Assembly: GCA_902571955.1 (NCBI GenBank)
Contig: CACGDZ010000005.1
Span: 1-64,000 of the forward strand
Direction: 5' to 3'
Origin: an uncultured Pelagibacteraceae bacterium
GTDB lineage: Bacteria > Pseudomonadota > Alphaproteobacteria > Pelagibacterales > Pelagibacteraceae
DNA length: 64,000 nucleotides
The translations under genes were made by a program, and so were the position numbers. A model generated the notes under the pieces. It made no database searches. It was not told the DNA's origin and saw only the letters and a list, made by a program, of their open reading frames with translations. Positions 6,755 through 22,657 of this stretch are shown here, one piece after another; positions within the stretch are counted from its first letter, which is position 1, and each line of letters starts with the position of its first letter.

Positions 6755-7345
6755 ATGAATGAAAAAGCCTTAGAAAAGATACTAAATATATTTTTAGAGA
6801 AAGTTTTACCCCTTACTGAAAAGGGTGTTGCTAGAGGTAGTAAAATTTTTGGGGCTGCAATAATTAAAAAGGATGATTTATCAGTTGTAATTGCTGAAAC
6901 AAACAACGAAATAGAAAATCCGTTGTGGCATGGAGAGATGCATACACTTAAGAAATTTTATGAATTAGATGCAAACACAAGGCCCAATGAAAAAGACTGC
7001 ATGTTTTTAAGTTCACATGAACCCTGTAGTATGTGCTTAAGTGCAATCACTTTTTCTGGATTTGATAATTTTTATTATTTGTTTCCATACGCAGCAACAA
7101 ATGATGATTTTAATATCCCTCATGACCTGAATATACTAAAAGAAGTTTTTAATATCCGTGATGGAAAATATAATAAAGAAAATTCATATTGGAAAAGCCA
7201 AAACATAAATTTACTTATTGACAATTTACCTAATTCAGAAAAAGAAAAAGTTTTAAACATATTAGACGAAATAAAAAAAAAATATTTAATTTTATCGAGT
7301 CGATATCAGAAAAATAAGGATGGAAATTCTATACCATTAAATTAA
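6755..7345 (+). CDS. Cytidine/guanine deaminase-superfamily protein, purine-locus associated
   Basis: This 196-residue protein carries the zinc deaminase motif HGE (59-61, with the proton-shuttle Glu61) and PCSMC (90-94). It therefore belongs to the cytidine/deoxycytidylate deaminase superfamily that includes guanine deaminase and TadA. It differs clearly from the guanine deaminase at 13478-13948: it is about 40 residues longer and has an unfamiliar C-terminal third. It ends 3 bases before the nucleoside ABC transporter operon, which suggests action on an imported nucleobase or nucleoside. The substrate is not known. Confidence 0.82.
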   Translation: MNEKALEKILNIFLEKVLPLTEKGVARGSKIFGAAIIKKDDLSVVIAETNNEIENPLWHGEMHTLKKFYELDANTRPNEKDCMFLSSHEPCSMCLSAITFSGFDNFYYLFPYAATNDDFNIPHDLNILKEVFNIRDGKYNKENSYWKSQNINLLIDNLPNSEKEKVLNILDEIKKKYLILSSRYQKNKDGNSIPLN

Positions 7346-7348
7346 TTA

Positions 7349-8839
7349 ATGAATACAAACCTTAAAATTTCAAATATAACTAAAATATATCCTGGGTGTG
7401 TTGCAAACAACGATGTTTCACTCGAGTTTAATAGTGGTAAAATTTATGCTCTTCTTGGAGAAAATGGTGCTGGAAAATCTACACTTGTTAAAATTCTCTC
7501 AGGTGTAGTCATTCCTGATGAAGGTAAAATTTATTTAAATAAAAATATTCTAAAACTTAATTCACCATCAGATGCAAAAAAAAATGATATTGGAATGGTA
7601 TTCCAGCATTTTAATCTTTTTGAAACTTTATCTGTATTTGAAAACTTAATAATAGACTCTGATGAACAAAGAGAAAATTTAAAAGAAAAAATAGATACAA
7701 TCATGAAAAAATACAATTTTTCAGTTGATCTTGATGTTCCTGTTCTCAATTTATCAGCAGGTCAAAAACAAAAAGTAGAAATAATAAGATGCCTAATTAG
7801 AAGCCCAAAAGTTTTAATTATGGATGAACCCACATCGGTATTAACAGAGCAAGAAACCAGTGAATTATTCTTATCATTAAAAAAATTTTCAGAGGAAGGA
7901 ATTTTAATTATTTATATAACCCATAAACTAAAGGAAGTAATGCAACTTTGTGATGAAGTTGCTGTGATGAGAAGAGGAAAATTGGTCTCTGTAAGCCAAA
8001 TCAATAATGAAAATATAGAATCCCTTGCTAACAAAATGGTAGGCCAGGATTTAAAGACAATTAAGAAAAAAAAGGAAAATACTTCGTCAGAACAATTAAT
8101 TAAAATAACAAATCTTAATTTTACAAGTGAAGATCCTTTTGAAACAAACTTAGTTGATATTAATTTTTCTCTAAATCGAGGGGAATGTTTAGGAATCGCT
8201 GGTATATCAGGAAATGGTCAAAGTGAATTATTTCAAGTGTTAAGTGGTGAAATTATATCAAATAAGAATTCCATAGAATTTAATAAAAATTTAATTGGGG
8301 ATTTAAATCCTCAAGAAAGAAGAGAATATTTAATGGCTTTTTCTCCAGAAGATAGGCTTGAACAAGCTGCTATTCCACAAATGGCAATTTTTGAAAATGT
8401 AGCTCTAAACAATTTTAAATCCTCAAATTTTTTTAATAATGGATTAATAAATGAAAGCAAAATTAAAGAGCATTCAAAAAAAATAATTTCAGAATTTAAT
8501 GTAAACACTGACAATATAGATTTAAAAAGCCAATTTTTATCTGGAGGAAATTTACAAAAATTAATTATTGGAAGAGAGTTAATAACATCTCCAGATTTAT
8601 TAATTTGTTTTAATCCTACATGGGGTTTGGACGTTGGAGCTATAAATTATATTCATGAAACATTAATTAAAATAAATGAACAAAATAAATCAATAATATT
8701 AATATCAACAGACACTGATGAGTTGTTAAAATTAAGTGACAAAATTTCAGTAATCCATAGAGGAAAATTATCAAAAATAATGAATGCTGAGGATGTTACC
8801 TCTGAAAAACTCGGGATACTTATGGGAGGAGGAAATTGA
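7349..8839 (+). CDS. BMP-type nucleoside/purine ABC importer, duplicated ATPase
   Basis: The 496-residue protein has two ABC domains. The first has Walker A GENGAGKST (37-45), signature LSAGQ (135-139) and Walker B VLIMDEP (155-161). The second has a degenerate P-loop GISGNGQSE and signature LSGGNLQK. This RbsA-like tandem form goes with BmpA/PnrA-type systems that import nucleosides or purines. It begins 3 bases after the deaminase gene and overlaps the first permease by 4 bases, so the four genes form a tight operon. A purine-related substrate is inferred from the neighbouring catabolic genes. Confidence 0.92.
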   Translation: MNTNLKISNITKIYPGCVANNDVSLEFNSGKIYALLGENGAGKSTLVKILSGVVIPDEGKIYLNKNILKLNSPSDAKKNDIGMVFQHFNLFETLSVFENLIIDSDEQRENLKEKIDTIMKKYNFSVDLDVPVLNLSAGQKQKVEIIRCLIRSPKVLIMDEPTSVLTEQETSELFLSLKKFSEEGILIIYITHKLKEVMQLCDEVAVMRRGKLVSVSQINNENIESLANKMVGQDLKTIKKKKENTSSEQLIKITNLNFTSEDPFETNLVDINFSLNRGECLGIAGISGNGQSELFQVLSGEIISNKNSIEFNKNLIGDLNPQERREYLMAFSPEDRLEQAAIPQMAIFENVALNNFKSSNFFNNGLINESKIKEHSKKIISEFNVNTDNIDLKSQFLSGGNLQKLIIGRELITSPDLLICFNPTWGLDVGAINYIHETLIKINEQNKSIILISTDTDELLKLSDKISVIHRGKLSKIMNAEDVTSEKLGILMGGGN

Positions 8840-9900
8840 TTAAAATTGTAAAAAGAGATCAACCTTCAAAAGCTATATTTTTCTTTACACCTGTCCTAGC
8901 TATTTTTCTCACATTAATAGCGGGAGGTATAATATTTTATATTTTAGGTTTTAAACCAATTGAAGCCCTAAAATTTTTTTTCATAGTTCCAATTGCAGAT
9001 AAATATGGTTTCAGTGAATTACTATTAAAAGCCACACCACTTTGTTTAATAGCGATTGGTTTATCTTTTTGTTTTAAAAGTAACAATTGGAATATTGGAG
9101 CAGAAGGTCAATTAACTTTTGGGGCTATAGTTTCAGGAGGAGTTGCATTATTATTTTATGATCAAGAAGGTCTCTATATTCTACCAATAGTAATATTAGC
9201 TGGCGCGATTGGTGGTATGATATATGCATCAATACCTGCAATATTAAAAACTTACTTCAATACTAATGAGATATTAGTGAGTCTTATGTTGGTATATGTT
9301 TCAAAATTAATTTTAGATTATCTTGTTGTCGGTCCTTGGAGTAATCCAGAAGGATTTAATTTTCCTGAAACTAGACAGTTCAGTGACTCTGCAAGACTTC
9401 CTTTATTATTTGAAGGACTAAGAATTCATGCAGGAATTTTTTTAGCATTAGCCGCAGTGATTATTAGTTGGTTTGTTTTTTATAAAACATATTTGGGTTT
9501 CCAAATGAAAGTTTCAGGTTTTAGTTTAAAGACTGCAAAATATGCTGGCTACAAAGGTAAAAAAATGATTATCCTAGTTTTTTTAATAAGTGGAGCTTGT
9601 GCAGGTTTAGCAGGCGTAGGAGAAATAACTGGACCCATTGGACAGCTTCATAGAGAAGTATCTCCAGATTATGGATTTACTGCGATTATTGTTGCATTTT
9701 TAGGTCGCTTACATCCTGTGGGGATAATTTTTGCATCTCTAGTTGTTGCAATAACTTATCTGGGTGCTGAAACGGCACAAATCTTTATGCAAATACCAAA
9801 ATATACAGGTCAGGTTTTTCAAGGGATGATTTTATTTTTTCTTCTTGCTTCTGACTATTTACTCTTTTTCAAATTTAAATTTATAGGTTCAAAAAAATGA
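8836..9900 (+). CDS. BMP-type ABC importer permease 1
   Basis: The protein has 354 residues and starts at TTG (8836), overlapping the ATPase stop by 4 bases. It is strongly hydrophobic with about nine membrane segments. The NWNIGAEGQLTFGA stretch is the conserved coupling region of branched-chain/BMP-type permeases (the YufP/NupP-like subunit). It should form half of the inner-membrane channel with the next gene product. The TTG start is supported by GGGAGGAGG just upstream at 8823-8831. Confidence 0.92.
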   Translation: MIKIVKRDQPSKAIFFFTPVLAIFLTLIAGGIIFYILGFKPIEALKFFFIVPIADKYGFSELLLKATPLCLIAIGLSFCFKSNNWNIGAEGQLTFGAIVSGGVALLFYDQEGLYILPIVILAGAIGGMIYASIPAILKTYFNTNEILVSLMLVYVSKLILDYLVVGPWSNPEGFNFPETRQFSDSARLPLLFEGLRIHAGIFLALAAVIISWFVFYKTYLGFQMKVSGFSLKTAKYAGYKGKKMIILVFLISGACAGLAGVGEITGPIGQLHREVSPDYGFTAIIVAFLGRLHPVGIIFASLVVAITYLGAETAQIFMQIPKYTGQVFQGMILFFLLASDYLLFFKFKFIGSKK

Positions 9901-10829
9901 TAGTAGATATAAATTTTGTTGGACTAATAATTGCATCTATAATGGCTTCTGCAGTTCCTTTGATTTTGGCGTCTTGTGGTGAATTAATTACTGAAAGATC
10001 TGGTGTTCTAAACCTTGGTGTTGAAGGAATGATGATCATTGGAGCTATTTCAGGCTTCGCACTAATGACGGTTACTGGAAGTTTAATTATAGCAGTTTTT
10101 GGTGCAATGTTAGCTGGAGTTTTAATTTCAACAATTTTTGCATTTCTTACCCAAACATTAATTACAAATCATGTCGCTACTGGTTTAGCTCTCACTATTT
10201 TTGGAATAGGAATTTCTGCAATGATCGGAAAAAACTTTGTGGGTATTCCTGGAAAAGAGTTTCCTGTTTTGTTTGAAGGTTTAAAAGACACAATACCACT
10301 TTTAAGTCCAATATTATTTGGTCATTCAATAGTTTTTTATTTTGCTTTTGCCCTACCCTTCATAACTAGCTACTTTTTAAAAAAAACAAAAATTGGATTA
10401 ATCGTAAGAGCTGTAGGAGACTCGCCTGAGTCTGCTTCTAATCAAGGAATAAATGTAAGGTTCGTTCGTTACGCTTGTATACTTTATGGAGGCGCAATGT
10501 GTGGACTTGCAGGGGCGTATTTGTCAATGATTTATACTCCACAGTGGATTGAAAATATGACAGGTGGTAGGGGCTGGATTGCACTTGCTCTAGTGGTTTT
10601 CTCGACGTGGAACCCTATTAAAATTTTAATAGGTGCGATGATTTTTGGTGGATTGACCATTATTCAATTTCATATGCAAGCAATCGGAGTAAGAATTCCT
10701 GTTCAATTTTTAACAGCCCTGCCTTACATAGTAACAATAATAGTTTTAGTTGTAATTTCTCGTGATAGTAGAAAAATAAGACTAAGTACTCCTAGTTCCT
10801 TGGGGAAATCTTTTCATAAAGACAATTAA
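9897..10829 (+). CDS. BMP-type ABC importer permease 2
   Basis: This 310-residue integral membrane protein overlaps permease 1 by ATGA. The SGVLNLGVEGMMIIGA stretch and the later AVGDSPESASNQGINV stretch match the YufQ/NupQ-like second subunit of nucleoside-type ABC importers. It is the last of the overlapping set; the binding-protein gene follows after 77 bases. Confidence 0.92.
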   Translation: MIVDINFVGLIIASIMASAVPLILASCGELITERSGVLNLGVEGMMIIGAISGFALMTVTGSLIIAVFGAMLAGVLISTIFAFLTQTLITNHVATGLALTIFGIGISAMIGKNFVGIPGKEFPVLFEGLKDTIPLLSPILFGHSIVFYFAFALPFITSYFLKKTKIGLIVRAVGDSPESASNQGINVRFVRYACILYGGAMCGLAGAYLSMIYTPQWIENMTGGRGWIALALVVFSTWNPIKILIGAMIFGGLTIIQFHMQAIGVRIPVQFLTALPYIVTIIVLVVISRDSRKIRLSTPSSLGKSFHKDN

Positions 10830-10906
10830 TTTAAAATAATCATTTTTTTTTAGATAATTTAATTTAAGTTTAATTAATTAAAAAAATCAAAAGGGGAAAT
10901 AAATTT

Positions 10907-11977
10907 ATGCATAAATTTTTAATTCGTTCTTTCGTCTCTTCTTTAGTTTTATTATTTACATTAACTGTGGCTGCAGTTGCAAAAGATGTAAAAGCAGCAT
11001 TTGTTTATATTGGTCCGACTGGTGACCATGGATGGACTTATCAGCACGATGTAGGTAGAAAAGCTGTTGAAGCTGCCGGATTTAAAACAACATACGTAGA
11101 AGGTGTTCCAGAAAGTGCTGATGCTGAAAGAGTTCTTAGACAATTAGCTAATTCTGGTCATGACATTATCTTTACTACTAGCTTTGGATATATGAATCCT
11201 ACTAACAAAGTTGCAAAAGAGTTTCCAAATGTAAAATTTGAACATGCTACTGGATATAAAAGAGAGCATCCAAATGTTGCTACTTACGCAGCTAGATTCT
11301 ATGAAGGTAGAACTATTTTGGGAACAATTGCTGGAACTATGACTAAATCTAATGTGATTGGATATGTTGCATCTTTTCCAATACCTGAAGTAATAAGAGG
11401 TATAAATTCATTTACTTTAGCAGCTCAAAAAGTTAATCCAAATATTAAAACTAAAATTGTTTGGGCTTTCACTTGGTACGATCCAGGTAAAGAAGCAGAA
11501 GCAGCAAAAGCTTTAATTGACCAAGGTGCTGATGTAATTGCTCAACATACAGATAGTACAGCTATTGTTCAAATGGCTGAAAAAGCAGGAGTGTATGCTT
11601 TTGGACAAGCGAGTGATATGGATAAGTTTGCACCAAAGGCTGTGTTGACTTCAGTTGAGAATAACTGGGGACCATATTATGTTGATAGAGTTAAAGCTGT
11701 TGCAAATGGTACATGGAATCAAAAAGATACATGGCACGGTATAGGTGATGGTATGGTAGTAATCTCAGGTTTAGATTCTCAAATGCCTAGTGACCTACAA
11801 GCAAAAGTTAAAAAACTTCAAGCAGATTTAGCATCTGGTAAAGTTCATTCTTTCACTGGACCAATTTATGACCAAAAAGGGAATTTAATGGTAGCAGAAG
11901 GGAAAACTGCAGATGATGGTATGCTAGCAGGTATGATGACTTATGTTAAAGGTGTTGAAGGAGATATACCGAAGTAA
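10907..11977 (+). CDS. BMP-family periplasmic substrate-binding protein
   Basis: The 356-residue protein has a clear Sec signal peptide with predicted cleavage after AVA (about residue 25). It has no lipobox, so it should be soluble in the periplasm. The mature part opens KDVKAAFVYIGPTGDHGWTY, typical of BmpA/PnrA-like proteins that bind purine nucleosides or related bases. An AAGGGG ribosome site precedes it. The separate 77-base leader allows higher expression than the membrane subunits, as is common for binding proteins. A strong terminator follows. Ligand identity is inferred only from the purine genes around it. Confidence 0.92.
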   Translation: MHKFLIRSFVSSLVLLFTLTVAAVAKDVKAAFVYIGPTGDHGWTYQHDVGRKAVEAAGFKTTYVEGVPESADAERVLRQLANSGHDIIFTTSFGYMNPTNKVAKEFPNVKFEHATGYKREHPNVATYAARFYEGRTILGTIAGTMTKSNVIGYVASFPIPEVIRGINSFTLAAQKVNPNIKTKIVWAFTWYDPGKEAEAAKALIDQGADVIAQHTDSTAIVQMAEKAGVYAFGQASDMDKFAPKAVLTSVENNWGPYYVDRVKAVANGTWNQKDTWHGIGDGMVVISGLDSQMPSDLQAKVKKLQADLASGKVHSFTGPIYDQKGNLMVAEGKTADDGMLAGMMTYVKGVEGDIPK

Positions 11978-12003: not shown

Positions 12004-12029
12004 GGCCGGTTTTTTAACTGGCCTTTTTT
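12004..12029 (+). terminator. Rho-independent terminator, bidirectional
   Basis: GGCCGGTT (12004-12011) pairs with AACTGGCC (12016-12023) around a TTTT loop, followed by TTTTTT. A-rich sequence lies on the other side, so the element can also end the convergent phosphoribosyltransferase transcript. It separates the two halves of the purine island. Confidence 0.93.
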
Positions 12030-12552
12030 ATATTTGATGTTTTTTTTTAATTTCTTCAATTCTTAATTCTTCATAAATTTCGAAGGGCTGTACAATCCAA
12101 GGATTACCATCAAGTTTTTTCGCACAAAAATCTGGCTCAAATGTTGATTTCTTTTTTTTAAACAACGTAGCAGTTTTAATATCTTCTATTTTATCTTTTA
12201 TAGGTTCATATTTTTTTAACCAGTCTATACTTTTATTGAAAGTTATTCCTGTATCAGATAAATCATCACACAAAAGTATTTTACCACCCATATTAGGTGC
12301 TATAGAACTCATTTCCCTTGAAAAAACAATATCACCCTGCTCATCTTCTACTCCTTTACCACTATAAGATTCAACTGCAAGATATGCACATTTTAATTTA
12401 AATATTCTACTTAATACATCTATCATTGGGGCTGCTCCACGCATTATGCCAATGAGTATTGTTGGTTTATATCCACTTTCATCAATTTGAATTGCTAGCT
12501 TTTCAACAGTCTTGTTGTACTCGTCCCAACTAACAATCATTTTTTCTGTCAT
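12028..12552 (-). CDS. Purine phosphoribosyltransferase (hypoxanthine/xanthine/guanine type)
   Basis: This 174-residue PRTase has the PRPP-binding loop ILLCDDLSDTGIT and an N-terminal LIGIMRGAAP stretch. It transfers ribose-5-phosphate to a purine base to give IMP, XMP or GMP. It sits last in the minus-strand arm of the purine island, 17 bases after puuD, which supports a salvage role that competes with the degradative enzymes. Base preference is not determined; a xanthine/guanine-type enzyme is as likely as a hypoxanthine-type one. Confidence 0.82.
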   Translation of the reverse strand: MTEKMIVSWDEYNKTVEKLAIQIDESGYKPTILIGIMRGAAPMIDVLSRIFKLKCAYLAVESYSGKGVEDEQGDIVFSREMSSIAPNMGGKILLCDDLSDTGITFNKSIDWLKKYEPIKDKIEDIKTATLFKKKKSTFEPDFCAKKLDGNPWIVQPFEIYEELRIEEIKKKHQI

Positions 12553-12569: not shown

Positions 12570-13478
12570 TTATTTAAATAATAAAACTAAAACTGCAAGA
12601 ACGATAAGTGCAATTATTGAAGATATTAAAATATACAACCTATGAATGTTTCTTCCTCTTAAATTAAAATAATGTCGTGCTATTCCAGTAATAATTGCTA
12701 ATGCACATAATATTAACCAATTATATTGATGATAAACTAAGAAACTTGAGTGACCAGAAAGCATTATAAACAACACTAAAAAAGTGGAATAATTATTATG
12801 AATTGATCTCTGTTTTGCTGCTAAAGATAGACTCATATCAAATTTTTCACCTCTTTCACTACTGCTAATAATGTTCATTTGATTGGGTATAATTACTGTA
12901 AAAACGTTACCAAACATATTGGTTCCTATAATTAATCCAACACTCAAAATTGCAAATTTTGGTCCAAATAATTTTGTTAAACCAAAGGAAACAGCTGCTA
13001 ATAAAATAATTGCTGTAGATATAAACAATACATTATTTTCAATCAATTTCGATTTACACAATAGATCATATATAAACCAAAAAATAATTAATGATAAAAG
13101 TGAAATAATAATGGCATAACTAGGAGGCATCAACAGGACACGTTTATCAACCATTAATACACCAGCGTTATAATAATAAATTACAACTAAGAGCAACATT
13201 CCTGTTACAAAAGTTAGGTAACTTTGCCATTTAAATATTACTAATCTATTTAAATAATCTTGCGGTGGTGAGGTTTTTAACCTTGTAAGTTTATAAAAAA
13301 ATCCAGAATGCATCAAATATCCCTCTCCATCGACATCATCGCTTGTTATATTTTTATTTAAATTATTGTCTAAGTAATTAAATAAAAAACTGTTACCTAC
13401 CCATAATATTGCAAATACTACATGGCCCCATCTTAGAATAACTTCTAACCATTTAATTGTATAAGGTAAAAATTCCAT
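12570..13478 (-). CDS. puuD: Membrane urate oxidase PuuD, membrane domain only
   Basis: The 302-residue protein has about eight hydrophobic segments. The features WGHVVFAILWVGNSFLFNYL and MHSGFFYKLTR, and later NMFGNVFTVIIPNQ, identify the integral-membrane domain of PuuD, which oxidises urate to 5-hydroxyisourate and passes electrons to cytochrome c. Family members usually carry a C-terminal cytochrome c domain, giving about 400 residues. Here the protein stops after the last membrane helix, with no CxxCH. The following steps (hiuH, uraD) are in the same locus. It overlaps guaD by one base (TGATG). Confidence 0.88.
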   Translation of the reverse strand: MEFLPYTIKWLEVILRWGHVVFAILWVGNSFLFNYLDNNLNKNITSDDVDGEGYLMHSGFFYKLTRLKTSPPQDYLNRLVIFKWQSYLTFVTGMLLLVVIYYYNAGVLMVDKRVLLMPPSYAIIISLLSLIIFWFIYDLLCKSKLIENNVLFISTAIILLAAVSFGLTKLFGPKFAILSVGLIIGTNMFGNVFTVIIPNQMNIISSSERGEKFDMSLSLAAKQRSIHNNYSTFLVLFIMLSGHSSFLVYHQYNWLILCALAIITGIARHYFNLRGRNIHRLYILISSIIALIVLAVLVLLFK

Positions 13479-13948: not shown

Positions 13949-16253
13949 TTTTTTTTTTTATTTTATTTTTAATTTTATTAATACTCATTAAAATTCTTTC
14001 AGGTGTTGCTGGCGCATTAAGTTCTGGTGCAAACTGATAATTTCCAACTGAAGCAACTGCATCTTTAATTGCATAAAAAACACTCATAGCTAACATTAGA
14101 GGAGGTTCGCCTGTTGTCTTTGCTTTATTAACAACTTTTTCTTTATTTATTCCATCTTTAAAAATTTCTACATTAAATTTTTTTGGAATATCACTTACAG
14201 CAGGAATTTTATACGTTGATGGAGAGAAAGTTGTAATCTGACCATTTGATTTCCAATTTAGTTCTTCAATAGTTAACCAACCTTGTCCTTGAACAAAACC
14301 CCCTTCGATCTGACCTAATTCAAGTGCAGGATTTATTGGTTTCCCTGCATCATGCAAAATATCAACTCTTTCTAGGATATTTTCACCTGTTAGTGTATCT
14401 ATAGTTACTTCTGAAACAGCTGCACCATAACAAAAATAATAAAATGGTCTTCCTCTAAATTTTTTTTTATCAAAGTTTATTTTTGGCGTTGAATAAAAAC
14501 CTGAGGATGAAAGAGAAATTCTATTTAAATATGCTTCTTGAATAATACTTTTAAATTCAAATTGTCTGTTTCCAAATATTATATATTGATCCTTGTAAAT
14601 TGCTTCTTGATTGTAAATCTTATATTTTTTTTTAATAAATTTTTCTAAATTTAATTTAATTTTTGCTACTGCATTTAATGCTGCAGCACCATTAAGGTCT
14701 GTGGTTGAAGATGCAGCGCTAGCTGAAGTATTTGGAACCTTAGCTGTATTTGTTGATGAAATATTTACTAAATTGTATGGTAATCCCAAGGAATTGGCCA
14801 CTAGTTGAGCTATTTTTGTATGAGTCCCTTGACCCATTTCTATACCACCATGGTTCAAGTACACACTTCCATCTGTATAAATATGTACTAAAGCACCAGC
14901 TTGATTTAAATGAATTGTTGTAAATGAAATCCCAAATTTTACTGGTGTAATAGCTATACCCTTCTTTTTAAATTTATTTTTTTCATTGAATTTTTTTATC
15001 TCTGAATATCTTTTCTTATAATTAGATTTATTTTCTAAATTTTTAAATATTTCATTAATCACATTGTCTTCAATAGTCATTCCATAGTGAGTTATATTTT
15101 TTTTATCTTTTTGATAAAAATTTTTCTTTCGAACTTGAATAGGATCTATTTTTAAATATCTTGAAATATTATCAATAACATTTTCTATAGCCATCATTCC
15201 TTGATTTCCACCAAAGCCTCTAAATGCAGTTGAAGTTGGAATATTTGTCTTGCATAAATTATTTGTTACCTCGATATTTGATATGTAATACGCATTGTCT
15301 ATATGAAGAAGAGCTCTTTCATTTATTGCTGCTGATAAATCAGGCGACATTCCACAATTTGATGATAAGTTAATTTTTAATCCTTCAATAATTCCTTCAT
15401 CATTAAATCCAACTTCGTATTCAGATAAAAATTCATGCCTTTTACCAGTCAAAATTATATCATCATCTCTATCTAGTCTTAATTTCACAGGCTGACCTGT
15501 TTTTTTTGCCAACAACGCACAAATACATGCAGTCATAAAATTTGTCTCTTTCCCTCCAAATCCACCTCCAATTCTTCTTACTTCAACATTTATAGAATTA
15601 CTTTTCTGATTAAACATTTTTGCAATTAATTGTTGTGTCTCTGAAGGATGTTGTGTTGAACTGTAAACTAAAAAATTATCATCTTCTTTAGGTATAACAA
15701 ACGCTGCCTGACCCTCTAAATAAAAGTGTTCTTGACTTCCAGTTGTAAAGTTTCCTCTCAAATTATATTTTGAATTTTTAATTTTCTTAGAAGGGTTTCC
15801 TTTTTTAATTTTTCTAGGCTTAAATAAAAACTGTTTTTTATTTAAAGCATCTTTTATTGTGATAACCGGTTTTAAATCTTTATAAGTGATTTTTGCCTTT
15901 AATACTGCTTTTCTTGCAAGTTCAATAGTTGTGGCAGCTACAGCAAACAATGGTTGACCAAAAAACTCAACTTTTTTATCTGGAAATATTGGATCACCAT
16001 CAAAAACAGGGCCTACATCGTTCCTTCCTGAGATATCACTTTGAGTGACTACCGATATCACCCCTTCACTTTTTTTTACATCGCTTAAGTCTATTTTTTT
16101 GATTATTGCATGAGCTTTTTTACTTAAACCTATAGCACCATAAATTGTATTTTTTGGTTCACTAATGTCATCAGTGTATTCAGCGTATCCACTTACATGC
16201 TTATAAGCACTATCATGTGGTCTTACATCATTAATATAGTTCTCTTTGCTCAT
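13938..16253 (-). CDS. xdhB: Xanthine dehydrogenase, molybdopterin-binding large subunit
   Basis: The 771-residue protein shows the molybdenum-cofactor motifs EHFYLEGQAAF, GGGFGGKE, TAFRGFGGNQGM and GQGTHTK in order. The catalytic glutamate is in TGEPPLMLA near the C-terminus. The arginine in FRGFGG is one used by xanthine dehydrogenases to orient the purine, which argues against a CO- or aldehyde-oxidising relative. It oxidises hypoxanthine to xanthine and urate in the cytoplasm together with XdhA. It follows xdhA with no gap. Confidence 0.93.
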   Translation of the reverse strand: MSKENYINDVRPHDSAYKHVSGYAEYTDDISEPKNTIYGAIGLSKKAHAIIKKIDLSDVKKSEGVISVVTQSDISGRNDVGPVFDGDPIFPDKKVEFFGQPLFAVAATTIELARKAVLKAKITYKDLKPVITIKDALNKKQFLFKPRKIKKGNPSKKIKNSKYNLRGNFTTGSQEHFYLEGQAAFVIPKEDDNFLVYSSTQHPSETQQLIAKMFNQKSNSINVEVRRIGGGFGGKETNFMTACICALLAKKTGQPVKLRLDRDDDIILTGKRHEFLSEYEVGFNDEGIIEGLKINLSSNCGMSPDLSAAINERALLHIDNAYYISNIEVTNNLCKTNIPTSTAFRGFGGNQGMMAIENVIDNISRYLKIDPIQVRKKNFYQKDKKNITHYGMTIEDNVINEIFKNLENKSNYKKRYSEIKKFNEKNKFKKKGIAITPVKFGISFTTIHLNQAGALVHIYTDGSVYLNHGGIEMGQGTHTKIAQLVANSLGLPYNLVNISSTNTAKVPNTSASAASSTTDLNGAAALNAVAKIKLNLEKFIKKKYKIYNQEAIYKDQYIIFGNRQFEFKSIIQEAYLNRISLSSSGFYSTPKINFDKKKFRGRPFYYFCYGAAVSEVTIDTLTGENILERVDILHDAGKPINPALELGQIEGGFVQGQGWLTIEELNWKSNGQITTFSPSTYKIPAVSDIPKKFNVEIFKDGINKEKVVNKAKTTGEPPLMLAMSVFYAIKDAVASVGNYQFAPELNAPATPERILMSINKIKNKIKKKNGR

Positions 16254-17690
16254 TTAATTAACTCTTGTTAGCTTATTTGAATCTATTTCTACGAAACATT
16301 TCATCAATAAATTTTTTGCTATCTCTAGTCTATATTCTTTACTTGCTCTCATATCCCCTATAGGACTTAGATCTTTATCAAGATAATTTTTGGCTTGATT
16401 AAAAGTACTTAAATTAAGAGGTTTATTCTTAAGAATTTTCTCACAGGCTTTAGCTCTTTTTGGTACAGCTGCCATACCTCCAAAAGCAATAAAAACCTCT
16501 TTAATTTTATTTTTATCAATTTCAAAATTAAAAGATCCACAAACAGATGAAATATCATCATCAAATCTTTTTGATATTTTAAATGCTTTAAAAATATTTT
16601 TCTTAAATAATGGTATTTTTATTGAGTGAATAAATTCATTCTTTTTTAATTTAGTTTTTCTATAATCAAGGAAAAAATTATTTATAGGAATAACTTTTCT
16701 TTGATTGAAGCTTTCGATTAAAATTTCTGCATTTAAAGATAACAAAATTGGTAAAGTATCACCTATCGGAGATGCTGTTGCAATGTTACCACCTATAGTT
16801 CCTACATTTCGAATTTGAACAGAACCGTATCTTTTAAGAACTAAATAAAAATCAGGATAATGTTTTTTAATTTCTTTTTCAAATTTTATTAAAGGTGTAG
16901 AGGCGCCAACTTCAAGGTAATTTTTATTTACTTTTATAAAGTCTAATTCTTTTATTTCTTTTAAATCAATTATAAAAGGAATTTCTTTTCTTTCTTTTGT
17001 AACTTTTAAAGATAAGTCTGTTCCACCTGCAAGAAAACTAAAATTAGAGTATTTTTTAATTATATTTTTTAAATCCTTAATATTCTTTGGTGAAAAATAA
17101 ATTTTATCATCTTTTTTAATATAAATATTTTTTGGTTTAATTTTTTTTAATAATTTGATAACTTTATTATTATTTTTACTAAATTGATCATTCCTGTTTT
17201 TCTTGTCTAAACTTTTTGCAGCATCTATTATAGGTCTATATCCAGTGCAACGACATAAATTACCTGATATAGAATCTGTTATTAATTCATTATTAAGATT
17301 TTTGTTATTTTTAAACATTGAAAATAAAGCCATAACAAATCCTGGTGTACAGAAACCGCATTGGGAACCATGAAATTTTACCATCGCATCTTGTACAGGG
17401 TGAAGTTTGCCATCTTTGGAAACCAAATCTTCTACAATTAAAAGTTGTTTACCATTTAATGATGGAACAAATGAAATACAGGAATTAATTGCTTTATATA
17501 TAATCTTATTATCGACTAATTCACCTAAAACAATTGTACACGCACCACAACCACCCTCTGAACATCCTTCTTTGGTTCCAGTCTTTTTTAATTCGGTTCT
17601 AATATAATTAAGTATGGTTTGATTTGGATCAGGATTATTGATTACTATAAGCTTATCATTTAATAAAAATTTAACAGAGCTCGATATCAC
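16254..17690 (-). CDS. xdhA: Xanthine dehydrogenase, FeS/FAD small subunit
   Basis: This 478-residue protein has an N-terminal ferredoxin domain with Cys43, 48, 51 and 71, and a second [2Fe-2S] domain with Cys111, 114, 146 and 148 (QCGFCTPGF and NLCRCTGYRP). An FAD domain starts near 195 with FLAGGTDLSLKV. Electrons from the molybdenum site pass through both clusters to FAD and then NAD+. The start is GTG at 17690, directly after the hiuH stop. All cofactor residues are intact. Confidence 0.93.
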   Translation of the reverse strand: MISSSVKFLLNDKLIVINNPDPNQTILNYIRTELKKTGTKEGCSEGGCGACTIVLGELVDNKIIYKAINSCISFVPSLNGKQLLIVEDLVSKDGKLHPVQDAMVKFHGSQCGFCTPGFVMALFSMFKNNKNLNNELITDSISGNLCRCTGYRPIIDAAKSLDKKNRNDQFSKNNNKVIKLLKKIKPKNIYIKKDDKIYFSPKNIKDLKNIIKKYSNFSFLAGGTDLSLKVTKERKEIPFIIDLKEIKELDFIKVNKNYLEVGASTPLIKFEKEIKKHYPDFYLVLKRYGSVQIRNVGTIGGNIATASPIGDTLPILLSLNAEILIESFNQRKVIPINNFFLDYRKTKLKKNEFIHSIKIPLFKKNIFKAFKISKRFDDDISSVCGSFNFEIDKNKIKEVFIAFGGMAAVPKRAKACEKILKNKPLNLSTFNQAKNYLDKDLSPIGDMRASKEYRLEIAKNLLMKCFVEIDSNKLTRVN

Positions 17691-18041
17691 TTAACTACCT
17701 CTATAAGTAGAATAACTCCAAGGTGAAACAAGTAAAGGAACATGATAATGCTGTGAGGGATCTGAAATACCAAATCTGATAATAACATCATCCAGGAATG
17801 GAACATCGCTAGCTGCAGATGTATTTTTAAAATAATCACCAATATGAAAAACTAATTCATATTTACCCTTAACAAAAATATCTCCCTCAGCTAATGGTGA
17901 ATTGGCTCTACCATCGTCATTGAGTTTTGTTGACGTTAATTTTTTTCGTTCTGAATTATTAATATAAAACAACTCAACTAGGATACCTTTTCCAGGTTTA
18001 CCAGAATACACATCTAAAACATGAGTTGTGAGCTTTGTCAT
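17691..18041 (-). CDS. hiuH: 5-Hydroxyisourate hydrolase (transthyretin-like)
   Basis: The 116-residue protein begins with LTTHVLDVYSGKP and ends in the diagnostic YRGS tetrapeptide. The HYHVPLLVSPWSYSTYRGS end places the catalytic histidine and arginine as in HIU hydrolases, not in vertebrate transthyretin. It hydrolyses 5-hydroxyisourate, the PuuD product, to OHCU. It is the first gene of the minus-strand arm and faces uraD, the next step, across 48 bases. Confidence 0.95.
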   Translation of the reverse strand: MTKLTTHVLDVYSGKPGKGILVELFYINNSERKKLTSTKLNDDGRANSPLAEGDIFVKGKYELVFHIGDYFKNTSAASDVPFLDDVIIRFGISDPSQHYHVPLLVSPWSYSTYRGS

Positions 18042-18089
18042 AAAATTATAGTATCATTTAATTTTAAACTTAAATTATTTTAAAGTTAT
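18042..18089. promoter_or_regulatory. Divergent promoter region of the purine island
   Basis: Only 48 bases separate the start codons of hiuH and uraD, so promoters for both arms must lie here or reach into the genes. An inverted repeat TAATTT-7-AAATTA (18059-18077) sits near the middle and could be an operator, but such repeats arise easily in AT-rich sequence. No convincing -35 box is seen. Confidence 0.4.
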
Positions 18090-18587
18090 ATGAGAACAAT
18101 AGATAACATTAACGATCTTAACAAGTCTGATTTTTTGTCTTTATTTGGTAATGTTTTTGAAAAAACTGAGTCAGTTGCAGTGGAAGCATTTGAGTCAAAA
18201 CCATTTAAAAACTTTGAAGATATTATGTTTAAAATGCTTGATATTTATGAAAATTACAAAAAAAACAAAATTTTAGAGATTTTAAATGCTCATCCTGAGC
18301 TTGCTGTAGCAAAAAAAATGACCTCTGAATCTATATCAGAACAAGCCTCTGCAAAATTAAACCAATGTTCTAATGATGAATATGAAGAATTTAAAAAATT
18401 AAATTCAGAATATAAAAAAAAGTTTAATTTTCCTTTTATAATTGCCGTAAAAGGTAAAGATAAAAATGAAATTTTGAATAATTTTAGACAACGAATACAA
18501 AGTGATGTAGAAAGTGAATTCCTTGAAGCAAAAAAACAAGTAAAAAAAATCGCAACATTTCGTTTGAATGAAATAAATAAAAAATGA
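18090..18587 (+). CDS. uraD: OHCU decarboxylase
   Basis: This 165-residue helical protein has the active-site NAHPELAVAKKM stretch (His in HPEL) and the substrate-binding FIIAVKGKDKNEIL stretch. It decarboxylates 2-oxo-4-hydroxy-4-carboxy-5-ureidoimidazoline to (S)-allantoin. It heads the plus-strand arm and overlaps the allantoicase start by ATGA. Length fits stand-alone bacterial UraD. Confidence 0.93.
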   Translation: MRTIDNINDLNKSDFLSLFGNVFEKTESVAVEAFESKPFKNFEDIMFKMLDIYENYKKNKILEILNAHPELAVAKKMTSESISEQASAKLNQCSNDEYEEFKKLNSEYKKKFNFPFIIAVKGKDKNEILNNFRQRIQSDVESEFLEAKKQVKKIATFRLNEINKK

Positions 18588-19570
18588 AAAAATTTATAAG
18601 TGCAAAAATGATTAACTTAGCGGACCCAAGAATTGGAACTAAAGTTATATTTAAGACTGACGATTTTTTTGCAGCTGCTCATAGAATATTAAACATCGAA
18701 ACTCCAGTTTTTAAAGATGGACTATTTGACAAACATGGTAAATGGATGGATGGATGGGAAACAAGGAGAAGAAGATCAAAAGGTTTTGATTATTTAATTT
18801 TAAAACTTGGTAAACCTGGGAAGATATTTGATATAGACATTGACACAACACACTTCAATGGAAACCAACCCACACATGCTTCATTAGAGGGTTGCTTAAG
18901 TAAAATAAAGCCTAATAAGAAAACAAAATGGGTTTCTTTACTGAACAAAAAAAAACTTGGGCCAAGCAGAAACCATAGCTTCAAATCAAACAACAAATCT
19001 GTTTTTAATTATATAAGACTAAACATTTTTCCAGATGGTGGAGTTGCAAGACTAAGGCTTTATGGAAAAATTGAAATGGAGAAAAACTTTTTCAATAACA
19101 AAACTATTAACCTTGCATCTGTTTTAAATGGCGCTTCAATTATTGGTTGTAATAATGAACATTTCGGCAAAGCTGAAAATATCATAGCACCTAGTAAAGG
19201 AAAAAATATGGGAGATGGTTGGGAAACAAGAAGAAGTAGAGGAAAAAACTTTGATTGGCTTATAATAAAATTTGGAAAACCAGGATTAATAAAAAAGCTA
19301 GAGATAGATACCCATCATTTTAAAGGAAACTATCCCGATAGTTGTTCAATTCAAACTGCAAGTATTTCAAAAGATCTTTCCAATAAATCAATTGTCAACA
19401 ATTCAAAAAATTGGAAGTTTATTTTAAATAAGTCAAAACTGTCAGCTCACAAGAAACATATTTTTAAAAAATTTTTAATTAAGAGAAGTAAGGAAAATTA
19501 TCTTAGAATTAATATCTATCCAGACGGTGGAATTTCAAGAATAAGGGCACTCGGAAATTTTGTGAAATGA
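18584..19570 (+). CDS. alc: Allantoicase
   Basis: The 328-residue protein is built from two homologous halves. Each has a DGWETRR motif (MDGWETRRRR and GDGWETRRSR), followed by a FDxLIxKxGKPG strand and a DTxHFxGNxP motif. This tandem jelly-roll arrangement is typical of allantoicase, which splits allantoate into ureidoglycolate and urea. The gene overlaps both neighbours by 4 bases. Confidence 0.94.
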   Translation: MKKFISAKMINLADPRIGTKVIFKTDDFFAAAHRILNIETPVFKDGLFDKHGKWMDGWETRRRRSKGFDYLILKLGKPGKIFDIDIDTTHFNGNQPTHASLEGCLSKIKPNKKTKWVSLLNKKKLGPSRNHSFKSNNKSVFNYIRLNIFPDGGVARLRLYGKIEMEKNFFNNKTINLASVLNGASIIGCNNEHFGKAENIIAPSKGKNMGDGWETRRSRGKNFDWLIIKFGKPGLIKKLEIDTHHFKGNYPDSCSIQTASISKDLSNKSIVNNSKNWKFILNKSKLSAHKKHIFKKFLIKRSKENYLRINIYPDGGISRIRALGNFVK

Positions 19571-20058
19571 AAATAATAAAAGCAAAGAAAATTACTAAAA
19601 AAAATTTTTCTAAATTTGGTCAATTAATAGATACGTCAAAAAAAAATCCTATAAATATTAATGATGGGTATGCAAAAAGATTTGATAATTTGATAAACCT
19701 AGATGCATCTAAAAACAAAGGGAAAGCAATTGTTAGTATTTTTAAAGCAAAAAAAAGAAGGTTTCCTATGAAAATTGATATGATGGAAAAACATCCTTTA
19801 GGAAGCCAAGCCTTTATACCAATGGAAGATACAAAATTTTTAGTATTTGTAGCACCAAAAGGAGATAAACCAGATGTAAATAAAATCCAATCCTTTTTAG
19901 TACCAAAACAAACTGGGGTTAATTACAAAGCTGGTATTTGGCACTTTCCGTTGATTTCTATTAAAGATATGAATTTTCTAATTGTTGATAGAAAAGGAAG
20001 AGGAAACAATCTTGTTATTTATAAATTTAAAAAAGATAAAATTATTTTAAAGAAATGA
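19567..20058 (+). CDS. allA: Ureidoglycolate lyase
   Basis: This 163-residue cupin-like protein has MEKHPLGSQAFIPM and a KAGIWHFPLI stretch, which match AllA. It cleaves ureidoglycolate to glyoxylate and urea. Overlaps of 4 bases on both sides place it in the uraD-alc-allA-puuE operon. The lyase (urea-forming) family is distinct from the ammonia-releasing ureidoglycolate amidohydrolase, so two ureas result from each allantoin. Confidence 0.92.
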   Translation: MKIIKAKKITKKNFSKFGQLIDTSKKNPININDGYAKRFDNLINLDASKNKGKAIVSIFKAKKRRFPMKIDMMEKHPLGSQAFIPMEDTKFLVFVAPKGDKPDVNKIQSFLVPKQTGVNYKAGIWHFPLISIKDMNFLIVDRKGRGNNLVIYKFKKDKIILKK

Positions 20059-20954
20059 AAAAAAAATATCCAAGAGATTTGGTGGGATATGGTTCCAAAC
20101 AAGTTAAGGTAAGGTGGCCTGGTAATGCTAAGTTAGCTTTACAATTTGTACTAAATTATGAAGAAGGAGCAGAGAATTGTACTCTCCACGGTGACAAAAC
20201 TTCAGAAGTATTTTTATCAGAAATTATAGGAGCAAAACCAATTAAAGGTCGACACTTAAATATGGAGTCAATTTATGAATATGGATCAAGAAGAGGATTT
20301 TGGAGAATTCACGACCTCTTTAACAAAAAAAAAATTCCACTTACTATTTTTGGAGTTGGTATGGCATTGGAGAGAAATAAAGAAGTTTGTTCAGCTATAA
20401 AAAAAGCAAATTATGAAGTTGCTAGTCATGGGTGGAGATGGATTGATTATCAAAATGTATCAAAGAAAAAAGAAAAGAATGACATGAAACTTGCAGTCAA
20501 ATCTATAAAAAAGATTTTTGGCAATCAACCTGCTGGTTGGTACACTGGTAGGTGTAGCACAAATACTTTAGATTTAATAATCGAAAATGGTGATTTTTTG
20601 TACTGCAGCGATACATACAGTGATGATCTTCCTTATTGGATAAAAAAAGGTAATAAAAAACAACTGATGATTCCTTATACACTTGATAACAATGATATGA
20701 GATTTGCAACCAATCAAGGATTTAATTCGGGTGAACAATTTTATAATTATTTAAAAGATAGTTTCGATGCCCTTTATGAGGAAGGAAAAACTTCACCAAA
20801 GATGATGTCGGTCGGCTTGCATTGTAGATTAATTGGAAGACCTGGTAGAATACAGTCTCTTAAAAAATTTTTAAATTACATTGCAAAATTTAAGGATATT
20901 TGGATCTGCAAAAGAGTAGACATAGCTAAACATTGGATAAAAAATTATAGTTAA
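20055..20954 (+). CDS. puuE: Allantoinase PuuE (polysaccharide-deacetylase fold)
   Basis: This 299-residue NodB-fold protein begins YPRDLVGYGSKQVKVRWPG and has LQFVLNYEEGAENC and VASHGWRWIDY, the signatures of the metal-independent PuuE allantoinase and not of sugar deacetylases. It opens allantoin to allantoate, the substrate of the allantoicase in the same operon. It is the last gene of the plus-strand arm and ends 8 bases from the convergent cytochrome c gene. Confidence 0.93.
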   Translation: MKKKYPRDLVGYGSKQVKVRWPGNAKLALQFVLNYEEGAENCTLHGDKTSEVFLSEIIGAKPIKGRHLNMESIYEYGSRRGFWRIHDLFNKKKIPLTIFGVGMALERNKEVCSAIKKANYEVASHGWRWIDYQNVSKKKEKNDMKLAVKSIKKIFGNQPAGWYTGRCSTNTLDLIIENGDFLYCSDTYSDDLPYWIKKGNKKQLMIPYTLDNNDMRFATNQGFNSGEQFYNYLKDSFDALYEEGKTSPKMMSVGLHCRLIGRPGRIQSLKKFLNYIAKFKDIWICKRVDIAKHWIKNYS

Positions 20955-20962
20955 AATTTTTA

Positions 20963-21286
20963 TTATTGTTCCGCAGCTATAGAAGTATAGTGAGCAACCG
21001 CTTCAATTTCCTCATCACTTAGTATACCCTCCATTGCGGGCATTACTCCTATACCGTTTCTAACTGCCATTATAATTCTTTGAGTATCAGGTCTAATTTC
21101 ATTTAAATTTGGACCAACCATTGCGTTCGATCCAGCATCTGAGAGCATATGGCATGCTGCACAATTTCCAGCCCCTAGAAAAACTTCTTTTCCCTTATTA
21201 AACAGTTCATCAGCATTAGCTTGTATAATTGAAAGAAATATCAAAACAAACAAGCTATAACATAAATTTAAAAATAATTTTTTCAC
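20963..21286 (-). CDS. Small periplasmic class I cytochrome c, possible PuuD partner
   Basis: The 107-residue precursor starts at GTG 21286 and has a signal peptide cleaved probably after ANA (residue 25). Haem attaches at CAACH (42-46), and a Met in GVMPAM (82 or 85) can be the distal ligand. The mature protein is about 82 residues, close in size and layout to the cytochrome domain that ends typical PuuD proteins. Its place inside the purine island makes it a good candidate for the electron acceptor of the shortened PuuD; this is inference. Confidence 0.9.
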   Translation of the reverse strand: MKKLFLNLCYSLFVLIFLSIIQANADELFNKGKEVFLGAGNCAACHMLSDAGSNAMVGPNLNEIRPDTQRIIMAVRNGIGVMPAMEGILSDEEIEAVAHYTSIAAEQ

Positions 21287-21329
21287 TTAAATTTGGTATC
21301 ATAATTAAAAAAATTTAAAAAGGAGAATT

Positions 21330-21617
21330 ATGAAAGCTTATTGGATTGCAAATTATACTGAAATTAAAGATAACGAAAGACTTAAAAAATATGCCATTAA
21401 AGCTAAAGAAGCAGTTGAAAAATATTCTGGAAAAATATTAGCAAGAAGTGCAAATAATATAACTCTGGACGGCCGAGAAATGGTAAGAGTGGCTCTTGCG
21501 GAATTTCCAGATATTGAGGCTGCAAAAAATTGTTACAATTCAGTAGAGTATGTTGAGGCTAGAAAACATTTAGAAGATAATGCTGTAAGAGAACACATTA
21601 TTTTTGAAGGAGTATAG
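21330..21617 (+). CDS. DUF1330 protein
   Basis: This 95-residue protein has the DUF1330 dimeric alpha-beta barrel pattern: AYWIANYTEIKDNERLKKY at the start, FPDIEAAKNCYNSVEY in the middle and a final IIFEGV strand. A good AAGGAG site precedes the ATG. The family has no firmly established function in my knowledge. Its position between the cytochrome and the XdhC genes suggests a link with purine oxidation, but this is context only. Confidence 0.82.
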   Translation: MKAYWIANYTEIKDNERLKKYAIKAKEAVEKYSGKILARSANNITLDGREMVRVALAEFPDIEAAKNCYNSVEYVEARKHLEDNAVREHIIFEGV

Positions 21618-21638
21618 AATTTAATAGTAATACAACTA

Positions 21639-21968
21639 ATGACACAATCATTTAATAGTACGATTTTAGAAGAAGCAATTTCATGGATTGAGTCTGGCCA
21701 ACAAGTAGCACTTGCAACTGTGGTTCAAACTTGGGGGTCGTCTCCATTCCAAATTGGAAGTAAGATGATAATTAATGAAAAAGGTAAATTTTTAGGATCA
21801 GTTTCTGGTGGTTGTGTCGAAACATCTGTTATTACTGAATGTTTGGAATTAATAAAAAATAAAAATTCATTTAAAAAAATCGATTTTAAAGTATCCGATG
21901 AAAATGCTTGGAACGTAGGCCTTGCATGTGGAGGAGAAATGACCGTTTTTATAGAACAAATAAATTAA
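21639..21968 (+). CDS. XdhC/CoxI family, N-terminal domain as a separate protein
   Basis: This 109-residue protein is the first XdhC_CoxI domain: VALATVVQTWGSSPFQIGSKM, the SVSGGCVE loop and GLACGGEM are the family landmarks. XdhC binds and helps sulfurate molybdenum cofactor and delivers it to xanthine dehydrogenase. In many bacteria this domain is fused to a Rossmann-like domain. Here the stop codon overlaps the start of that second domain by one base (TAATG at 21966-21970). Confidence 0.88.
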   Translation: MTQSFNSTILEEAISWIESGQQVALATVVQTWGSSPFQIGSKMIINEKGKFLGSVSGGCVETSVITECLELIKNKNSFKKIDFKVSDENAWNVGLACGGEMTVFIEQIN

Positions 21969-22657
21969 TGAAAATAGAAACACTCAAACAAATAATAAAA
22001 AAAAAATCATTAAATGAACAATTTGCTATTATAACTAATTTAAGTAACGGGTCCTCTGAAATATTTAAAGCAGAATCATCTTTAAGTAAAAATTTTATAA
22101 ATTTTAAAAATGAAATAGAAAATTATTATAATTTAAAAAAAAATGGTATCATTAATGAAACTGAAATTTTTATTGAAAATTATTTTAAACCAGTTGAAGT
22201 CATAATTGTTGGTGCAGTTCATATCACACAATATTTAATTGAATTTTTAAAAAATCTAAATTTTGAGGTTAAAGTAATAGATCCAAGAGAATATTTCGTC
22301 ACAAAACAAAAATTTCAAAATATTAAAATTATAAATAAATGGCCTGAAGAAATTTTTAAAAAAATTCGAACAGGTTCTAATACTGCTTTAATTACTTTAA
22401 CTCATGATCCAAAAATTGATGAACCTGCATTAAAACATGCTTTAAAAAAGAAGTTTTTTTACATAGGGGCTCTGGGAAGTAAAAAAACTCACAAAAATAG
22501 ATGTAAAAGATTAAAAGAAGATGGGTTTAACAATAAAGAAATTGGCTCCATACATGGACCAATTGGTCTAGATATTGGTGGAAAATCCGCTCCAGAAATA
22601 GCTTTGTCAATTGTTGCACAACTAGTTTCTGAAAGAAATAAATCTATAAAAATTTAA
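21968..22657 (+). CDS. XdhC family, C-terminal Rossmann domain as a separate protein
   Basis: Taking the ATG at 21968, which overlaps the previous stop, gives 229 residues. The start of an open frame at 21908 would overlap the N-terminal gene by 61 bases and is less likely. EVIIVGAVHITQYLIEFL is a Rossmann motif, and FFYIGALGSKKTHKNR with IHGPIGLDIGGKSAPEIALS is the XdhC C-terminal signature. It should work with the preceding gene in cofactor insertion into XdhAB. Its stop is shared with the convergent glycosylase gene. Confidence 0.88.
   Translation: MKIETLKQIIKKKSLNEQFAIITNLSNGSSEIFKAESSLSKNFINFKNEIENYYNLKKNGIINETEIFIENYFKPVEVIIVGAVHITQYLIEFLKNLNFEVKVIDPREYFVTKQKFQNIKIINKWPEEIFKKIRTGSNTALITLTHDPKIDEPALKHALKKKFFYIGALGSKKTHKNRCKRLKEDGFNNKEIGSIHGPIGLDIGGKSAPEIALSIVAQLVSERNKSIKI

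Follow-up and report, generated by a model that had tools for sequence, protein, structure and literature searches.

Background

Full-length PuuD urate oxidases have been reported to end, without exception, in a C-terminal cytochrome c domain (Doniselli 2015, PMC4562309). In SAR11, a purine degradation island has been described in genomospecies Ia.3/V (Haro-Moreno 2020, PMC7318151). Its genes have been mapped in about 18–22% of genomes, with urease in about 5%, and placed in an ecological setting (Braakman 2025, PMC11698098), and xdhAB, nupNOPQ and urease (6/8 genomes) have been reported in 'Xanthinipelagibacter' (2025 ISME J, PMC12636525). We analyzed an island of this kind in a stretch of 64,000 nucleotides (the window) from an uncultured Pelagibacteraceae bacterium (GCA_902571955.1, contig CACGDZ010000005.1, positions 1 to 64,000), with a focus on its PuuD, which lacks the cytochrome domain, and on a small c-type cytochrome encoded in the same island. 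The ecology of the island is already known; the point of interest is how very abundant ocean heterotrophs oxidize urate without the cytochrome domain that has been taken to define PuuD.

The locus resembles the SAR11 purine cluster of gWID/HIMB083-like genomes (PMC7318151, PMC11698098, PMC12636525) in its pathway genes, the kind of island, the ABC transporter, the occurrence of urease in a subset and the ecological reading. As these studies describe the island, the island itself is not new. It differs in that the island cytochrome goes unmentioned in the available main texts: the stem 'cytochrome' has no occurrence in those of PMC11698098 and PMC7318151, and three in that of PMC12636525, none about purines (supplements were outside the scope). 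A literature search, with supplements and subscription papers outside its scope, found no paper joining SAR11, urate oxidase and cytochrome c. The combination of a cytochrome-less PuuD and a linked SorU-type cytochrome is an overlooked feature that is possibly new. We propose that the two form a two-protein urate oxidase, in which a membrane-only PuuD would work with a periplasmic SorU-family cytochrome c recruited from sulfur loci, within a purine-oxidizing island. Judged from sequence, we consider this proposal probable, though far from assured.

PuuD without its cytochrome domain

The window PuuD matches the Urate_ox_N membrane domain (PF06181, positions 2–293 of 295) and ends after it, at residue 302, with no CXXCH in the translation. 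An earlier, sequence-only reading of this DNA had listed PuuD, which holds for the membrane domain (302 aa) but not for the C-terminal cytochrome c expected with that name. The protein is thus like known PuuD (PMC4562309, PF06181) in its nearly end-to-end membrane domain, its invariant histidines and its setting in a uricolytic cluster, and unlike it in having no C-terminal cytochrome c. Because this domain is missing, we call the window protein a cytochrome-less variant, which may still function in the way of PuuD.

Samples of 385 genomes of the class, 197 of the family and 399 of the genus were searched (G and L numbers are our handles for genomes and loci). Across the class, some PF06181 match was found in 213 of the 385 genomes. 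Of the near-full-length rows below 1e-85, 88 out of 90 lie in frames of at least 395 codons, which leaves room for a fused cytochrome; this count omits short partial matches (about profile positions 150–265), the contig-end pieces in G486 and G563, the divergent G427 and weaker rows. CXXCH is present in all 30 of the long PuuDs that were fetched. The two exceptions with short frames are the window (306 codons) and G323 (308 codons). In G323, a 4.3 Mb genome belonging to a different family within the class, the cytochrome-less PuuD adjoins hiuH, followed by a PhoX phosphatase (L205, G323:C33:19000-38000, 8771-9682). The very divergent match in G427 (4e-35, G427:C1:458689-459540) lies inside an 842-codon frame.

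Within the family, a PuuD match was found in 33 genomes and no frame exceeds 306 codons, four of the matches being contig-end pieces (G130, G126, G025, G006). In the genus sample, 101 of 399 genomes have puuD; five rows are partial (G604, G761, G756, G746, G880) and 96 are near-full-length. The frames of the latter span 299–308 codons except in G769, whose 451-codon frame by position reads upstream through guaD and not into a cytochrome. All 95 near-full-length genus relatives are, like the window PuuD, without a fused cytochrome. The partial PuuD of G756 (G756:C13:8907-9452) has two internal stops and is possibly a decaying copy.

No stop codon interrupts any of the 96 near-full-length rows. 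The window protein keeps histidines 19, 57, 227 and 243, which do not vary among 30 fused PuuDs, and 51 of the 70 near-invariant membrane columns. In other SAR11 genera (L013–L031) PuuD is shorter still by about 22 residues, except in G014 (303 aa), and seems by its sequence to lack the last transmembrane helix. For the window PuuD, of which eight transmembrane helices would be expected, hydropathy gave windows that overlap, and a PDB sequence search returned nothing credible.

A small cytochrome linked to the urate half of the pathway

The same island encodes a c-type cytochrome of 107 residues with a hydrophobic stretch at residues 4–22 and a single CXXCH-type motif, CAACH. The sequence-only reading held that the island had no spare gene. 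This was wrong, because the cytochrome and a DUF1330 gene were overlooked and XdhC is split. The best family of the cytochrome is SorU (NF052248), at 86 bits under a cut-off of 100, and its best PDB match is 4pw9_B, a SorT-SorU entry. Besides these two top matches, it resembles SorU, the cytochrome subunit of sulfite dehydrogenase, in being small and in having an apparent signal peptide and only one CXXCH. It is unlike SorU in scoring under the family cut-off and in being located in a purine island, where its neighbors are puuE and DUF1330, not sorT.

The cytochrome adjoins puuE in the window and in 7/7 near relatives. Among the named loci, which are the best 80 of 209 PuuD relatives, 55 span uraD to the flank and 54 of the 55 carry the same cytochrome. 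In the genus sample, cytochrome matches were divided into strong and weak at a gap in E value (4.6e-29 to 8.3e-21). Strong ones were found in 80 of 399 genomes, 74 of which have PuuD. In 60 of these 74 both genes are on one contig with starts 5.4–8.4 kb apart. Of the 14 strong cytochromes off the puuD contig, six were fetched (L220, L222, L250–L253) and six more were assigned to the island by an adjoining alc; those of G686 and G858 were counted as island copies by identity alone (86% and 90%). Apr-type loci hold eight of the 80 strong cytochromes, five of them in PuuD genomes; the contig of G797 has an apr-type neighborhood and is too short to show aprBA.

A bare count of cytochrome homologs as proof was rejected at the family level, as relatives sit at SorT and Apr loci, and for this reason island, apr and sorT copies were counted apart. 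The island cytochrome is present in 69 of 101 PuuD-positive genomes, two of them assigned by identity alone, versus 3 of 298 PuuD-negative genomes, and in these three the contigs end inside the island (L230, L238, L239). Weaker SorU-type matches alone do not track PuuD (9/101 versus 20/298, p 0.51).

We fetched 37 complete genus islands, chosen by hand and not as a random sample, with completeness defined to require uraD. The cytochrome is present in 22 and absent from 15. Twelve of the 22 are without alc, and there the cytochrome adjoins uraD. Separate-site alc clusters carry it in none of ten cases fetched (seven from PuuD-negative and three from PuuD-positive genomes). Since it is kept in alc-less islands and absent from separate alc clusters, the cytochrome goes with the urate half of the pathway and not with the allantoin half. 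Whole-genome counts show no difference (4/13 PuuD-positive, Alc-negative versus 4/20 PuuD-negative, Alc-positive genomes, p 0.68; the Alc counts omit two matches at E about 7e-4, in G647 and G909), because draft genomes are cut, and loci were used instead. The four PuuD-negative, Alc-positive genomes with a cytochrome comprise two truncated islands (G728, G825) and two apr copies (G594, G626). Genomes both with and without PuuD have a further allantoin cluster elsewhere on the chromosome map, arranged puuE-alc-allA (L240–L249).

SorU-family cytochromes at other loci

Fifteen genomes have complete cytochrome-less islands, 13 from the 399-genome sample and two (G149, G194) from the family sample. 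Nine of them encode a SorU-family cytochrome beside a SorT-like enzyme, and five have one at an apr locus. A SorU-family copy outside the island is therefore present in 14 of 15, versus 23 of 298 PuuD-negative genomes (p 1e-13) and 1 of 22 complete islands with their own cytochrome (p 4e-8); within the 399-genome sample alone the figures are 12/13 versus 23/298 (p 7e-12). All three tests ignore kinship, and these distribution statistics are weakened because the genomes are related. The puuD locus was fetched for 19 of the 27 PuuD-positive genomes without a strong cytochrome (left out were G625, G674, G718, G745, G746, G837, G880 and G902). At the family level, a SorU-family match occurs somewhere in 29 of 33 PuuD-positive versus 30 of 164 PuuD-negative genomes.

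A tree built from six island proteins of 39 loci requires eight changes in the location of the cytochrome, and at least five in the island label on well-supported branches alone. Where independent pairs on this tree differ in the island cytochrome, the other cytochrome either shows the reverse difference or shows none, and in no pair does it change in the same direction.

Small SorU-family cytochromes are carried by SAR11 aprBA loci, mostly beside a TauE permease (L222, L235, L236, L250–L253, L209). To our knowledge, this cytochrome is not part of descriptions of SAR11 sulfur oxidation. The names AprB, TauE and SorT-like were first assigned by reading the sequence, with a later Pfam check of individual examples, and AprA was recognized only as a FAD flavoprotein beside AprB.

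Origin of the cytochrome and alternative explanations

The window cytochrome is 56–98% identical to other island copies, 43–67% to 22 apr-labeled copies and 40–44% to nine sorT-labeled copies. The apr label was given to L072–L085 as a block, in which L082 and L084 have no apr or TauE neighbor, and L092 gave no usable ORF. Identity to the cytochrome domains of 30 fused PuuDs is 12–20%, below that to the sulfur-locus cytochromes, and fission of a fused PuuD as the origin was rejected on these values. The cytochrome was probably recruited from the SAR11 sulfur-locus family. In a tree rooted on the fused PuuD domains the island cytochromes are not one clade; recruitment may thus have occurred more than once or in both directions.

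In the proposed two-protein urate oxidase, urate would be oxidized at the membrane domain of PuuD without hydrogen peroxide, and electrons would pass from PuuD to the separate periplasmic cytochrome c and on to a terminal oxidase. The island cytochrome would then probably do the job of the domain that PuuD lacks. Of the proteins encoded in the island, PuuD appears to be the only membrane redox enzyme that a periplasmic cytochrome could reach. The gene identities, the missing fused domain, and the linkage and complementary distribution of the cytochrome are observations; catalysis at every step, contact between PuuD and the cytochrome, and the direction of recruitment are inferred. A wider form of this proposal is that PuuD has been unbundled in SAR11, with interchangeable SorU-family cytochromes (island, aprBA and SorT-like loci) forming a carrier family common to urate and sulfite oxidation that is switched as modules come and go. 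We put this forward tentatively, as somewhat less likely to be right than wrong.

Several observations weigh against the two-protein reading. In other SAR11 genera a linked cytochrome is missing from every complete PuuD island (0/12), and 11 of 23 complete genus islands without alc are also without it. G726 has a complete island and no SorU-family match, and four of the 33 PuuD-positive family genomes, 55–79% complete, have no such match anywhere. The location of the cytochrome is clustered by kinship on the island tree (0/200 shuffles as low), and only five independent pairs fall on well-supported branches (sign test not significant, median p 0.125). DUF1330 accompanies the islands more constantly (29/37 and 12/12 in the genus and in other genera) than does the cytochrome (22/37 and 0/12). 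At 12–20% identity to the fused domains, no homology ties the cytochrome to urate oxidation. Finally, 19 of the 70 near-invariant membrane columns differ in the window PuuD, and its structure model is poor (mean pLDDT 46.7) and was set aside.

The leading alternative is that electrons from PuuD enter a general cytochrome c or quinone pool, with the island cytochrome either a passenger or working in another process, for example in sulfite oxidation like its SorU relatives. This alternative draws above all on the 0/12 islands of other genera, and is also favored by SorU being the best family and by relatives that adjoin SorT-like or AprB/TauE genes. Yet no sulfite enzyme is encoded among the 19 island genes, nearly all island copies are in genomes with PuuD while weaker SorU-type matches alone do not track it, and in 12 alc-less islands the cytochrome adjoins the genes of the urate half. 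We regard a general pool as possible but rather doubtful. That the cytochrome-less PuuD is decaying or no longer a urate oxidase, with another enzyme oxidizing urate, is suggested by the loss of a domain called invariant, the 19 differing columns, the further residues missing in other genera and the G756 copy, but is very improbable given the uninterrupted near-full-length rows, the four conserved histidines, the presence in each complete island listed of hiuH, which acts on the product of PuuD, and a Pfam search of the island that found no soluble urate oxidase.

Island layout and degradation pathway

Profile searches of the window ORFs (Pfam and NCBIfam) delimit an island of 19 genes at 6755–22657 (Table 1). 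These are the bounds given by the sequence-only reading, and every enzyme it named was found by Pfam. A plus-strand importer operon (deaminase-like protein, ATPase, two permeases, BMP binding protein) is followed by a minus-strand run of phosphoribosyltransferase, PuuD, guanine deaminase, XdhB, XdhA and HiuH. A plus-strand run of UraD, Alc, AllA and PuuE comes next, then the minus-strand cytochrome c, and then DUF1330 and a two-piece XdhC on the plus strand. This contiguous set of importer, PRT, deaminase, xdhAB, puuD, hiuH, uraD, alc, allA and puuE identifies it as a SAR11 purine catabolism island. Its flanking genes encode Hsp20 and a prolyl oligopeptidase at one end, and an HhH-GPD glycosylase and an EamA transporter at the opposite end. 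The window gave no match in Rfam and tRNA scans.

Table 1 Genes of the purine island in the window
Feature	Position	Strand	Evidence
Cytidine/purine-deaminase-superfamily protein, first gene of importer operon	6755..7345	+	PF00383 40.6 bits; HGE and PCSMC zinc motif
ABC importer ATPase	7349..8839	+	PF00005, two stretches
ABC importer permease 1	8836..9900	+	PF02653
ABC importer permease 2	9897..10829	+	PF02653
BMP-family periplasmic binding protein, predicted purine-base binder	10907..11977	+	PF02608; 3s99 3e-119, 6pi5 5e-109; 3s99-like pocket
Purine phosphoribosyltransferase (PRT)	12028..12552	-	PF00156; HGPRT/XPRT matches under cut-off
PuuD (302 aa), limited to the membrane domain; cytochrome c domain absent	12570..13478	-	PF06181 285.9 bits, 2-293 of 295; open frame 306 codons
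Guanine deaminase, B. subtilis GuaD type; overlaps puuD by 1 base	13478..13948	-	1wkq/1tiy 6e-48
XdhB, xanthine dehydrogenase molybdopterin subunit	13938..16253	-	TIGR02965 1102.5 vs cut-off 849.5
XdhA, xanthine dehydrogenase FeS/FAD subunit	16254..17690	-	TIGR02963 576.2 vs cut-off 467
HiuH, 5-hydroxyisourate hydrolase	17691..18041	-	TIGR02962 125.8 vs cut-off 87.45
UraD, OHCU decarboxylase	18090..18587	+	TIGR03164 161.3 vs cut-off 96.25
Alc, allantoicase	18584..19570	+	TIGR02961 389.5 vs cut-off 277.9
AllA, ureidoglycolate lyase	19567..20058	+	PF04115 168.9 vs cut-off 23 bits; below every NCBIfam cut-off
PuuE, allantoinase	20055..20954	+	TIGR03212 486.2 vs cut-off 424.6
Small c-type cytochrome, apparent signal peptide, CAACH, SorU-like; proposed PuuD electron acceptor	20963..21286	-	NF052248 86 bits; PF13442 48.6 bits
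DUF1330 protein	21330..21617	+	PF07045
XdhC N-terminal domain	21639..21968	+	PF02625
XdhC C-terminal Rossmann domain, separate overlapping ORF	21968..22657	+	PF13478

The host genome (1.15 Mb, 31 contigs, 88% complete) is SAR11-like by its sequence: the best 80 of 209 PuuD relatives all come from Pelagibacteraceae assemblies, with PuuD identity of 92–99%, and GC is 24–35%. The island is no assembly artifact, since puuD occurs in 101 of 399 genus genomes and loci span uraD to the flank (55 among the best 80 of 209). Absence in relatives through assembly error, which the sequence-only reading had named as a way to be refuted, does not account for the pattern: there are one-contig genus genomes, 99–100% complete, without puuD.

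XdhA, XdhB, HiuH, UraD, Alc and PuuE pass curated NCBIfam cut-offs, and these assignments are firm as sequence-based assignments go. Purine bases would be imported and then oxidized by the island enzymes. In the cytoplasm, guanine deaminase and xanthine dehydrogenase would yield urate, PuuD would convert urate to 5-hydroxyisourate, and HiuH, UraD, PuuE, Alc and AllA would carry this on to glyoxylate and urea. The enzymes for breakdown to glyoxylate and urea are present as proposed earlier, but the pathway need not end at urea: a urease operon (ureDABCEFG) lies elsewhere in the genome, so that purine nitrogen can pass on to ammonia, which urease would release from urea. The genome also has a MoaA-type molybdenum cofactor (Moco) gene, and malate synthase matches in two frames overlapping by ten bases (G000, contig C15:22215-22933), a frameshift that is perhaps an assembly error. 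With urease, the MoaA-type gene and malate synthase (split over two frames) all encoded by it, this genome has outlets for nitrogen and carbon. The earlier suggestion that the lineage uses dissolved purines as a nitrogen or carbon source is supported by these genes together with a predicted purine-base binder. Adenine additions to a SAR11 subgroup have been reported (Braakman 2025, PMC11698098), and no growth test on purines by an island-bearing strain was found in the available text of the literature searched.

The DUF1330 protein may be a pathway helper. Its gene is in 29/37 complete genus islands and 12/12 of those of other genera, where it sits between puuD and prt, and a second copy is present in the host genome. 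XdhC was correctly recognized by the earlier reading as present, but its N domain and its Rossmann domain are encoded by separate ORFs that overlap (21639–22657). The same split is found in G156 (L033, L067).

Importer and deaminases

In a PDB sequence search the solved proteins nearest to the BMP binding protein are 3s99 (3e-119) and AtzT, 6pi5 (5e-109). AtzT binds guanine with a KD of about 0.11 uM, and 3s99 has adenine modeled in its site (PMC6834077). Pocket positions were taken from the published contacts of AtzT via alignment, with the base contacts in 3s99 itself assumed; on this basis the window protein has the same letter as 3s99 at each of the eight positions (W43, S92, F93, E161, G165, W190, H214, D216). 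Ser, Phe, Glu and one stacking Trp are shared with the AtzT pocket, whereas Tyr45, Asn169, Asn218 and Asn220 of AtzT are Trp, Gly, His and Asp in the window protein, as in 3s99. The binding protein is thus predicted to be a purine-base binder. A base importer would suit the island, as no nucleosidase was found by Pfam among its genes. The importer could instead carry nucleosides, as the published name nupNOPQ implies. The BMP family includes nucleoside binders, and a PNP-family gene is present elsewhere in the host genome. Against this, adenine or guanine is the ligand of the nearest solved relatives and the pocket agrees with 3s99 letter by letter, and we consider nucleoside import unlikely.

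Two deaminases and a guanine deaminase had been listed earlier. Two genes are there, of which the second is the guanine deaminase, so the list is one too many if three were meant. The first is only weakly similar to the best PDB guanine deaminase (8e-6) and had no match in PADLOC; adenine as its substrate is a guess. The deaminase adjoining puuD matches B. subtilis GuaD near full length (165.6 bits, 6e-48, residues 5–155) better than TadA (78 bits, 6e-21), and for this reason is taken to be a guanine deaminase; its NCBIfam matches, TadA included, are all under cut-off. Published SAR11 maps name a deaminase tadA (PMC11698098, PMC12636525) and, in the latter, the importer nup; GuaD and a purine-base binder fit better here.

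Implications

If the separate cytochrome is the acceptor of PuuD, the electron route of the energy-yielding urate step becomes testable, and the role of the domain fused in other PuuDs could be examined with separate parts. Metagenome surveys would gain a marker for the urate-oxidizing half of the pathway. Carriers common to sulfur and purine oxidation would then also seem likely in streamlined genomes.

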